A DNA stretch of 64,000 nt, taken from NCBI RefSeq assembly GCF_005434975.1, contig NZ_SKCJ01000001.1:1436001-1500000 (forward strand), read 5' to 3'. The notes under the pieces are model-generated. The model saw only the letters and a list, made by a program, of their open reading frames with translations. It made no database searches and had not been told where the DNA came from. The position numbers were made by a program, and so were the translations under genes. This stretch comes from Parerythrobacter lutipelagi. GTDB taxonomy: Bacteria > Pseudomonadota > Alphaproteobacteria > Sphingomonadales > Sphingomonadaceae. Of the stretch, positions 17,070 to 18,834 are shown one piece after another (positions within the stretch are counted from its first letter, which is position 1; each line of letters opens with the position of its first letter).

Positions 17070-17864
17070 TCAGAGATCAAACTCCGTCGTCAGAGGAATA
17101 TGATCGGACGGCTTCTCCCAATCGCGCGCTTCCTCGAACACATGGTGCCGGACAGCCTGCCCGGCGAGGTCGGGGCTTGCCCACATATGGTCGAGCCGGC
17201 GACCGCGATCGCCCTTGCGCCAATCCTTCGCGCGGTAGCTCCACCAGCTGAAATACCGCTCCGGATCGCGGATGTGCTCGCGTCCGATGTCGGTCCAGCC
17301 ATGCGCATCCTTGAACCGCTGGAGCGTCTCTACCTCGACCGGCGTATGGCTGACGACCTTGAGCAACTGCTTGTGATTCCACACATCGCTTTCGAGCGGC
17401 GCAACGTTGAAATCACCGGTTATCAATGTCGGCCGGTCGATCTTGTCCGCCCAGCGCGTCATCCGCTCGAAAAAATCAAGCTTCTGGCCGAACTTGGGAT
17501 TGATCTCCCGGTTCGGCTCATCCCCTCCTGCCGGGATGTAGACATTCTCGACAATCATGCCCTTGCCTGCACCATGCAGTTCCACCCCGACATGGCGCGC
17601 TTCACCATTGTCCTGCCAGTCGTGGCGCGAAAATTCGGTCAGGGGAATGCGGCTGACCGTAGCGACGCCATGGTAACCCTTCTGGCCATGCACCGCAGTG
17701 TGTTCATAGCCAAGTCGCGCGAATGCCTCGAACGGGAACTGGTGTTCCTGGCATTTGATTTCCTGAAGGCACAGCACATCGGGCGCATGCTGTTCGAGAA
17801 AGCGCTCCACGATCGGCATGCGCAGGCGAACGGAGTTGATGTTCCAGGTAGTTATAGAGACCAT
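17070..17864 (-). CDS. xthA: Exodeoxyribonuclease III
   Basis: This 264-residue Mg-dependent nuclease of the exonuclease III/AP endonuclease family acts in base excision repair. Visible family blocks are TTWNINSVRLR at the start with its metal-binding Asn, LCLQEIK with the catalytic Glu, GDFNVAP, and the C-terminal SDHIPLT with the catalytic His. I use the ATG at 17864 (MVSITTWN); the frame upstream of it crosses the small-RNA terminator region and is not coding. It lies 86 bases before the ribA start on the same strand. Confidence 0.96.
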   Translation of the reverse strand: MVSITTWNINSVRLRMPIVERFLEQHAPDVLCLQEIKCQEHQFPFEAFARLGYEHTAVHGQKGYHGVATVSRIPLTEFSRHDWQDNGEARHVGVELHGAGKGMIVENVYIPAGGDEPNREINPKFGQKLDFFERMTRWADKIDRPTLITGDFNVAPLESDVWNHKQLLKVVSHTPVEVETLQRFKDAHGWTDIGREHIRDPERYFSWWSYRAKDWRKGDRGRRLDHMWASPDLAGQAVRHHVFEEARDWEKPSDHIPLTTEFDL

Positions 17865-17932: not shown

Positions 17933-17970
17933 AAAAAAACCCTCGTGCCGGGGGCATTGGCACGAGGGTT
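17933..17970 (-). terminator. Rho-independent terminator on the minus strand
   Basis: CCCTCGTGCC (17940-17949) pairs perfectly with GGCACGAGGG (17959-17968), extended by AA/TT, around a 9-base loop. Seven A residues on the plus strand (17933-17939) give a seven-U tail on the minus strand. It lies upstream of xthA and downstream of lolA, so it ends whatever enters from the right. Confidence 0.92.
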
Positions 17971-18059
17971 CCATGTTAGCGTTCGTCACGCTTTGACAAA
18001 GCGGTCTTTCTAGGGAGACTGAGGCAACAGGGGGGAAACCCGCCTCCGACCGCTTTGTT
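17933..18059 (-). ncRNA. Candidate structured small RNA of about 127 nt
   Basis: Between lolA and xthA the minus strand carries promoter, structured RNA and terminator in order. A perfect 11-bp stem joins 18048-18058 to 17996-18006. Inside it are stacked GAGGC/GCCTC (18042-18046 with 18021-18025) and GGG/CCC (18039-18041 with 18033-18035) stems. After the main stem a 5-bp AGCGT/ACGCT hairpin leads into the terminator. C-rich unpaired segments, including CUCCC, resemble the anti-Shine-Dalgarno loops common in alphaproteobacterial riboregulators. No open reading frame explains this conservation of structure. I cannot assign it to a named RNA family; a processed lolA 3' UTR is the main alternative. 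Confidence 0.6.
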
Positions 18060-18065
18060 GGTTAC

Positions 18066-18094
18066 AATCTATTCCTGTCGTGCTTGCTCGCCAA
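18066..18094 (-). promoter_or_regulatory. Candidate sigma-70-type promoter of the small RNA
   Basis: On the minus strand TTGGCG (18089-18094) and TAGATT (18066-18071) are spaced by exactly 17 bases. Each matches the consensus at four of six positions. A start site about seven bases downstream falls at the first base or two of the 11-bp stem of the proposed RNA, which supports the pairing of promoter and RNA. Confidence 0.5.
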
Positions 18095-18148
18095 TGAACA
18101 ATCGACCGCGGCTTGTCGTATTCTTCCAACAATCAGCCGCCGAAGCGA

Positions 18149-18805
18149 TTATCTCGGGCGACGAGACGAACGGCGCGGATCCTTGTAGGTGAATGCGCTG
18201 TCAGCGACCGCGACTCCGTAGCGATGATTGCGCAGCCGCACAGTCGTGCGATTGTTCTGCGAGTCGAGCGAGACCCAATTGGTCAGCTGCAGTCCGCCCG
18301 GGGCTTTCGCACTGGGCACGAAGATCAGCGTGATGATGCCGTATTCCGGGCGATTGGGGTCGCGCACTTCCACGCTGATGACATCGGGATTGCTGGTCGG
18401 GACCAGCTTGCCATAGCGCTTCACGTCGCGATTGGGATCGAGCAGCGCACCGAGCGGCGAGTTGCTGATTGGCCAGCGCTGGACCTGGTTTACCTCGTAA
18501 TCGATCAGCGTCAGCGACTTGCCATTGGAGACAAGCAGCATCGGGACGCCTTCTTCATACTGGAAGCGAATCTTGCCGGGACGCTTGAGCGTAAGCTTTC
18601 CGGCCACAGTCTGTCCCTGACGGTCAGTCTGCGTGAAGTCCGCCTGCATGGTCGAAATGCCGCGCAATGCGGTCACCGCGCGGTCCAGATCGCCTTGCTG
18701 CGCGGAGGCAGGAGCAGCTGTCGTGAGGGTCGCCGCTGGTGCGCCAATGGCCAGCGCGGCGGCAAGCGCGCCGAGCAGTGGCTTCGATTTTAGGTTTGAG
18801 ATCAT
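18149..18805 (-). CDS. lolA: LolA-family outer-membrane lipoprotein carrier protein
   Basis: This 218-residue protein with a signal peptide (cleavage near ASAQQ) is a periplasmic LolA-type chaperone that ferries lipoproteins from the inner membrane toward the outer membrane. The opening of the mature part (LRGISTMQADFTQTDRQG), then KLTLKRPGKIRFQYEEG and LVSNGKSLTLID, is the standard LolA pattern. Two ATGs lie six bases apart. GGAG sits one base before the ATG at 18811 but seven bases before the one at 18805, so I use 18805. rpmG lies upstream on the same strand. Confidence 0.88.
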   Translation of the reverse strand: MISNLKSKPLLGALAAALAIGAPAATLTTAAPASAQQGDLDRAVTALRGISTMQADFTQTDRQGQTVAGKLTLKRPGKIRFQYEEGVPMLLVSNGKSLTLIDYEVNQVQRWPISNSPLGALLDPNRDVKRYGKLVPTSNPDVISVEVRDPNRPEYGIITLIFVPSAKAPGGLQLTNWVSLDSQNNRTTVRLRNHRYGVAVADSAFTYKDPRRSSRRPR

Positions 18806-18834
18806 GTTCATGCTCCGTGAAATAGCGTCGGAGC

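Follow-up and report, generated by a model that had tools for sequence, protein, structure and literature searches.

Between lolA and xthA, the minus strand of the analysed stretch of the Parerythrobacter lutipelagi genome (64,000 nucleotides, hereafter the window) carries a gene for a structured small RNA, which is present family-wide, is absent from Rfam, and constitutes a new RNA family of a known kind. The RNA is probably an independently transcribed, trans-acting regulator and the founder of its family, with C-rich loops that would pair with G-rich ribosome-binding sites. The gene, its elements, and the neighbouring genes are listed in Table 1. The family searched (f1) was taken to be Sphingomonadaceae in the GTDB sense, on the basis of its named relatives and recall.

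Table 1. Features of the small RNA locus, in window coordinates
Feature	Position	Strand	Remarks
lolA, upstream, same strand	18149..18811	-	TIGR00547 lolA, E 2.9e-16, below the curated cut-off
Promoter/activator element GTTCAT-N6-GCAAGC	18082..18099	-	GTTCAT 18099-18094, GCAAGC 18087-18082; conserved
-10 region TAGATT	18066..18071	-	Leading TA alone strongly conserved (94% and 93%)
Small RNA gene, ~127 nt	17933..18059	-	Start inferred from promoter spacing; T tract taken as the end
5' hairpin	17996..18058	-	Lower stem 18058-18048 / 18006-17996 (11 bp), upper stems above
Apical loop 1, UUUCCCCCCUGUUG, presumed seed	18025..18038	-	89-100% conserved per position (100 sequences)
Hairpin 2, AGCGU-GACGA-ACGCU	17978..17992	-	Invariant stem pairs and conserved loop
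Terminator hairpin	17938..17970	-	Arms 17970-17959 and 17949-17938; C-rich loop AAUGCCCCC 17958-17950
T7 tract of the intrinsic terminator	17933..17939	-	Sequence
xthA, downstream, same strand	17070..17864	-	TIGR00633 exodeoxyribonuclease III, 175.2 bits, cut-off 99.05

RNA gene and its conserved fold

The original prediction had placed a promoter, a folded RNA, and a terminator in this gap, and all the minus-strand elements that it named are present at those positions, with a total length of about 127 nt. They include the promoter-like letters TTGGCG (18094-18089) and TAGATT (18071-18066), which are there as sequence with a 17-base gap, the 11-bp stem, the AGCGT/ACGCT hairpin (17992-17978), and the terminator with seven T. 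A simple consensus scan reported neither the promoter nor the terminator of the RNA; the terminator loop is 9 nt long, and the rule of the scan allows at most 8. The minimum free energy of the 130-nt stretch was −59.1 kcal/mol (mean of shuffled sequences −36.9, sd 3.7; z −5.9), and none of the 200 dinucleotide shuffles folded as low.

Relatives were collected by BLASTN with a 188-base query, which found the RNA in 118 of the 199 family genomes. The 118 positive genomes yielded 110 loci from 109 genomes (one genome twice), of which 100 entered the alignment A3; L008, L036, L055, L068, L095, L100, L102, L103, L105, and L108 were omitted to keep A3 at 100 loci (some of them are near duplicates, others divergent), and L109 was without the strict anchor. 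A smaller alignment, A1, consisted of 31 sequences chosen from 50 of 61 non-redundant ones, aligned with MAFFT, for which a structure was assembled manually by combining the fold of a single member with the RNAalifold consensus. The covariance model R1 was built from A1, the 100 loci of A3 were aligned with R1, and model R2 was built from A3. R2, whose training set includes the window sequence, located the RNA at 17935-18059 with 128.9 bits.

Compensatory changes, sought in the alignment of relatives, were found at 26 of the 35 pairs in A3 (406 cells with both sides changed vs 97 after shuffling, by a shuffle control that ignores relatedness and in an alignment fitted to the structure). Paired cells made up 95.1% (82.8% shuffled), and the covariation score was 0.398 against 0.169 shuffled, falling to at most 0.102 once the partners were slid by one to three columns. 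In A1, which was not fitted to the structure, both sides had changed at 16 of 35 pairs (71 cells vs 24.6 shuffled). The lower stem of the 5' hairpin had such changes at all nine modelled pairs, with 91.6% of cells paired in A3, and the terminator stem at 8 of 13 pairs, with 99.5% of cells paired. Since the fold lies below all shuffles and is conserved with compensatory changes, the unit is beyond chance. RNA length among relatives varied between 106 and 135 nt by steps of one nucleotide; this gradation and the covarying helices make a coding RNA unlikely.

The unpaired parts were nearly constant. Besides loop 1, the GCCCCC of the terminator loop and the GACGA loop of hairpin 2 were each 98-100% conserved (100 sequences), and three of the five stem pairs of hairpin 2 were invariant in A3. 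Fixed loops on changing stems are the pattern of pairing small RNAs, and the RNA fits it. CUCCC, proposed earlier as the pairing segment, sits in a variable stem strand, and that role would pass to the conserved C-rich segments UUUCCCCCCUGUUG and AAUGCCCCC.

Conservation of a loop over 12-14 nt might also reflect binding by a protein, in which case the RNA could serve as a decoy or scaffold, with the GACGA hairpin and the C-rich loops bound by protein. Hairpin 2, near-invariant in stem and loop alike, would suit such a role, as would the finding that, in six of six genomes, the exact 12-nt complement of loop 1 turned up nowhere except opposite the RNA gene. C runs facing G-rich start sites are, however, the usual sign of pairing RNAs, and the glnK sites described below fit it, so that protein binding as the main function appears unlikely.

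Distribution, promoter, and locus

Model R2 matched 192 of the 199 family genomes, 183 of the 187 good genomes, and 95 of the 96 genera. Of the matching genomes, 187 had one match each and five had two. Milder filters regained one of the seven missed genomes (G055, E 1.2e-4). At the order level, 67 of 147 genomes matched, comprising 64 from the family and three from two other families; the 20 misses that were listed were all outside the family, and 60 further misses were unlisted. The three divergent copies from other families have the C-rich loop and a GCGTGACGA hairpin, with xthA downstream in all three and lolA upstream in two. At the class level (model R1, stricter filters), 12 of 385 genomes matched, five of them within the family. 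The seven matches outside the order (24.4-32.5 bits) were rejected, as they resemble plain terminators, and none of them had the exact loop motifs or adjoined lolA or xthA. One of these weak matches (L237, near 1535) has ACGTGACGATCGT before its terminator, like hairpin 2. The RNA is thus family-wide, with traces beyond the family.

No further copy was found in the genome of the window, where the next match had an E value of 0.07. A pattern scan of named genomes found at least 119 loci, and the matches listed included Novosphingobium, Erythrobacter, Sphingomonas, Croceibacterium, Qipengyuania, and Tsuneonella. Among them, the closest to the window region were Altererythrobacter sp. C41 (76% identity) and Pelagerythrobacter rhizovicinus (75%). 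On contig G009:C2, the RNA was found twice with equal scores near both contig ends (L054, L055), probably because overlapping ends of a circular assembly were left unmerged.

Upstream of the RNA, RTTCA was present in 100 of 100 loci, being the anchor of the count; from this anchor, a G 12 letters on was conserved in 97% and an A 15 letters on in 99% of these loci. The core RTTCA-N7-GM.A-N12-TA was found in 90 of the 100 loci and never in 20,000 shuffled stretches; 46 of the 100 loci had the full consensus RTTCAT-N6-GMAAGC-N10-TA, and 112 of the 119 named loci among the matches listed had a loosened form. By raw letter counts, six of 14 further loci (L263, L265, L266, L269, L270, L272) fit 12-13 of 14 promoter letters, and the other eight fit 6-11, including the three from other families with 6-8.

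The assignment of TTGGCG as a −35 box did not hold up: its first T, which is the last letter of GTTCAT, is conserved at 80%, and the next five letters at 36-52%. The promoter spacing is unlike that of a normal −35 box, and the promoters of EcfG, RpoH, and RpoN also differ from it in spacing. EcfG-type promoters, which would be expected of a GsrN-type stress RNA, have the form GGAAC-N16/17-CGTT, which, by comparison, is not that of the conserved promoter here. As the spacing fits none of these, an activator probably binds GTTCAT-N6-GMAAGC across the −35 region. The promoter motif had just one other exact match in the window's genome (L275, G000:C1:1344140-1344169), which may be due to chance. 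Another stretch, similar to TGCGACAA and less strongly conserved (TACGACAA in the window, 18113-18120, minus strand), lies 21 bp upstream of GTTCAT and is possibly the site of a second regulator.

Same-strand xthA was found downstream in 72 of the 100 loci, at a distance of 30-496 nt (median 80 nt), and in all 14 further loci, an arrangement that would suit a cis-acting leader or attenuator in which the promoter, the structured leader, and the terminator govern read-through into xthA. In the other 28 loci, however, xthA was not found within ~1.4 kb downstream, and 16 of these, both congeners L002 and L003 among them, have a convergent alkaline-phosphatase-like gene there (in L003, 1705-3126, minus strand; alkaline phosphatase model, E 4.6e-50, below cut-off), which speaks against a cis leader. 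These xthA-less loci belong to A3, in which the RNA and its consistently paired terminator stem are conserved, and no antiterminator was seen by eye. The fixed position before a controlled gene that marks a riboswitch or attenuator of xthA is thus lacking in 28 of 100 loci, and such a leader is improbable. The RNA instead has a promoter and a terminator of its own, which are conserved although the gene downstream varies, as is characteristic of a trans-acting small RNA.

The RNA is very unlikely to derive from the lolA mRNA by processing of its 3' end: same-strand lolA lies upstream in nearly all loci, its stop about 90 nt ahead of the RNA in the window, but the promoter core directly precedes the RNA in 90 of 100 loci, and in genus g24 (low G+C, ~2-Mb genomes; L263, L266, L270) the RNA and the promoter motif are kept although the lolA match ends ~840-950 nt off. 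Genus g24, with genome G024, is presumably Zymomonas.

Candidate targets and proposed function

Long complementarity to loop 1 gave 19 non-self matches in six genomes, of which 18 were examined and none was convincing; six had a start codon and an open frame within 22 nt, with ATG in L298 alone (53 codons). The motif CAGGGGG before ATG occurred at 26 sites in the window's genome and at 5 in the reversed control, and 12 of the 26 had an open frame of at least 50 codons. For comparison among genomes, 90 CAGGGGG loci were used, namely all sites of the congeneric G000, G104, and G015 and part of those from five other genomes. The sole orthologous pair among them was a PII gene followed by amtB, common to the window's genome and one congener (PII by NCBIfam, E 3.9e-47, below cut-off); we take these genes to be glnK and amtB. 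In the third congener, G015, CCGGGGGGC stands in place of CAGGGGG before glnK. The glnK start in the window's genome (L336 / L393, G000:C1:1086539-1086874, minus strand) reads TTCAGGGGGCTTCG-ATG, with amtB downstream. Upstream of it lies TGGCAC-N5-TTGC, a sigma-54-like motif.

The glnK starts were counted in the best 40 loci (39 genomes), which come from closer relatives, out of 116 matching family genomes; L406-L420 (three from the family, twelve from other families) and L441, whose start is not MK, were left out. Within 22 nt before glnK, GGGG was present in 36 of these 40 best-scoring loci and GGGGG in 18. GGGGG preceded amtB in 11 of 39 loci, and start regions of 25 nt had it in 0 of 54 cases for xthA, 0 of 33 for lolA, and 1 of 39 for the window genes. 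Two glnK loci from other families have TTGGAG and AGGAGGG at their starts.

The predicted pairing of loop 1 with the glnK starts averaged −15.1 kcal/mol, compared with −12.0 for shuffled loops, and none of 200 shuffled loops did as well; such an effect was not seen for amtB, xthA, or lolA, where 98, 195, and 199 of 200 shuffled loops, respectively, paired as well as loop 1. When the run of six C was held fixed, 46 of 300 random flanks equalled the pairing of loop 1 with glnK, and among 28 rearrangements the real loop came third; the specificity of loop 1 for glnK beyond the C run is thus weak. The glnK start sites are orthologous and therefore not independent. Given this weak specificity, the dependence among the sites, and the origin of the loci in closer relatives, the glnK (PII) mRNA, the best single candidate target, is only a lead.

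The preferred reading, a small RNA that pairs in trans, could work as follows. A dedicated promoter, probably activator-dependent, would start the 127-nt RNA, which would end at its own terminator. The covarying stems would hold out the two near-invariant C-rich loops and the fixed GACGA hairpin, and the loops would pair with the G-rich ribosome-binding sites of several mRNAs, glnK being the best candidate. Pairing would alter the translation or stability of the targets, most likely as repression, and Hfq is probably involved.

A bolder and less probable reading makes the RNA a core riboregulator of the whole family that would be switched on by a putative activator through the 18-bp motif and would set ammonium assimilation through glnK and other start sites with G runs. 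An RNA that is absent from Rfam yet found in 95 of the 96 sampled genera of sphingomonads, a group used for the breakdown of pollutants and lignin, would be an overlooked core regulator. The covariance model, a promoter motif that could serve to isolate the activator, and a candidate target known by name are at hand for tests.

Novelty and comparison with known small RNAs

No Rfam 15 model matched the 64-kb window or seven homologous loci at the gathering cut-off, in line with the earlier remark that it could not be matched to a named RNA family. The best sub-threshold match at the region was nse_sRNA (21 bits, 75 required), and the suhB (alphaR8) model gave no match up to E 5. Together with the covarying pairs and the promoter core in 90 of 100 loci, the lack of an Rfam match supports the proposal of a candidate novel small RNA that is equipped with a promoter and a terminator of its own. 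Among the matches listed in literature searches, no published description of this RNA was recognised. To our knowledge, few small RNAs are conserved across a large bacterial family with such covariation and together with their promoter.

The alphaR8 small RNAs SisA-D of Caulobacter have a single-stranded UUUCCUCCCU core of anti-Shine-Dalgarno character, a terminator, and many targets (PMC12559287). The RNA here resembles them in its terminator and in its core UUUCCCCCCU, one letter from UUUCCUCCCU. The alphaR8 core, however, lies internally, following a weak hairpin (PMC12559287), whereas here a long covarying hairpin presents it as the apical loop. One alphaR8 copy adjoins an FGase gene, and the siblings have no promoter motif in common (PMC12559287). 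Unlike alphaR8, the RNA here occupies the lolA-xthA locus, is mostly present in one copy, and has one conserved promoter. Of the alphaR8/suhB features compared, the terminator was found here; a single-stranded stretch with the exact 10-nt core UUUCCUCCCU and the Rfam match were not.

GsrN of Caulobacter is most strongly conserved in its C-rich loop, through which it binds a G tract in an mRNA (PMC5869019); a strongly conserved C-rich loop is shared by the RNA here. GsrN belongs to the general stress response, raises KatG, and has BLAST matches confined to Caulobacteraceae (PMC5869019). Its promoter and locus are unlike those found here. PmaR of Agrobacterium, which was set beside the RNA here by description, likewise has a long stem and an accessible C-rich loop; it is limited to Agrobacterium and a Rhizobium strain, and its control is mostly positive (PMC6234868).

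SuhB of Sphingopyxis granuli, likewise from a sphingomonad, is an Hfq-dependent trans-acting RNA of 61 nt that represses thnR (PMC6563040); it was judged different on account of this length and because suhB gave no match, not by sequence. Zms15 of Zymomonas mobilis ZM4 is a plus-strand small RNA of 98 nt at 1,666,899 (PMC6970203). The RNA of the presumed Zymomonas genome G024 lies on the plus strand at 1,651,008 of a 2.02-Mb contig; compared by strand and position alone, the two agree in strand and roughly in position, and Zms15 may be a homologue that has already been seen experimentally.
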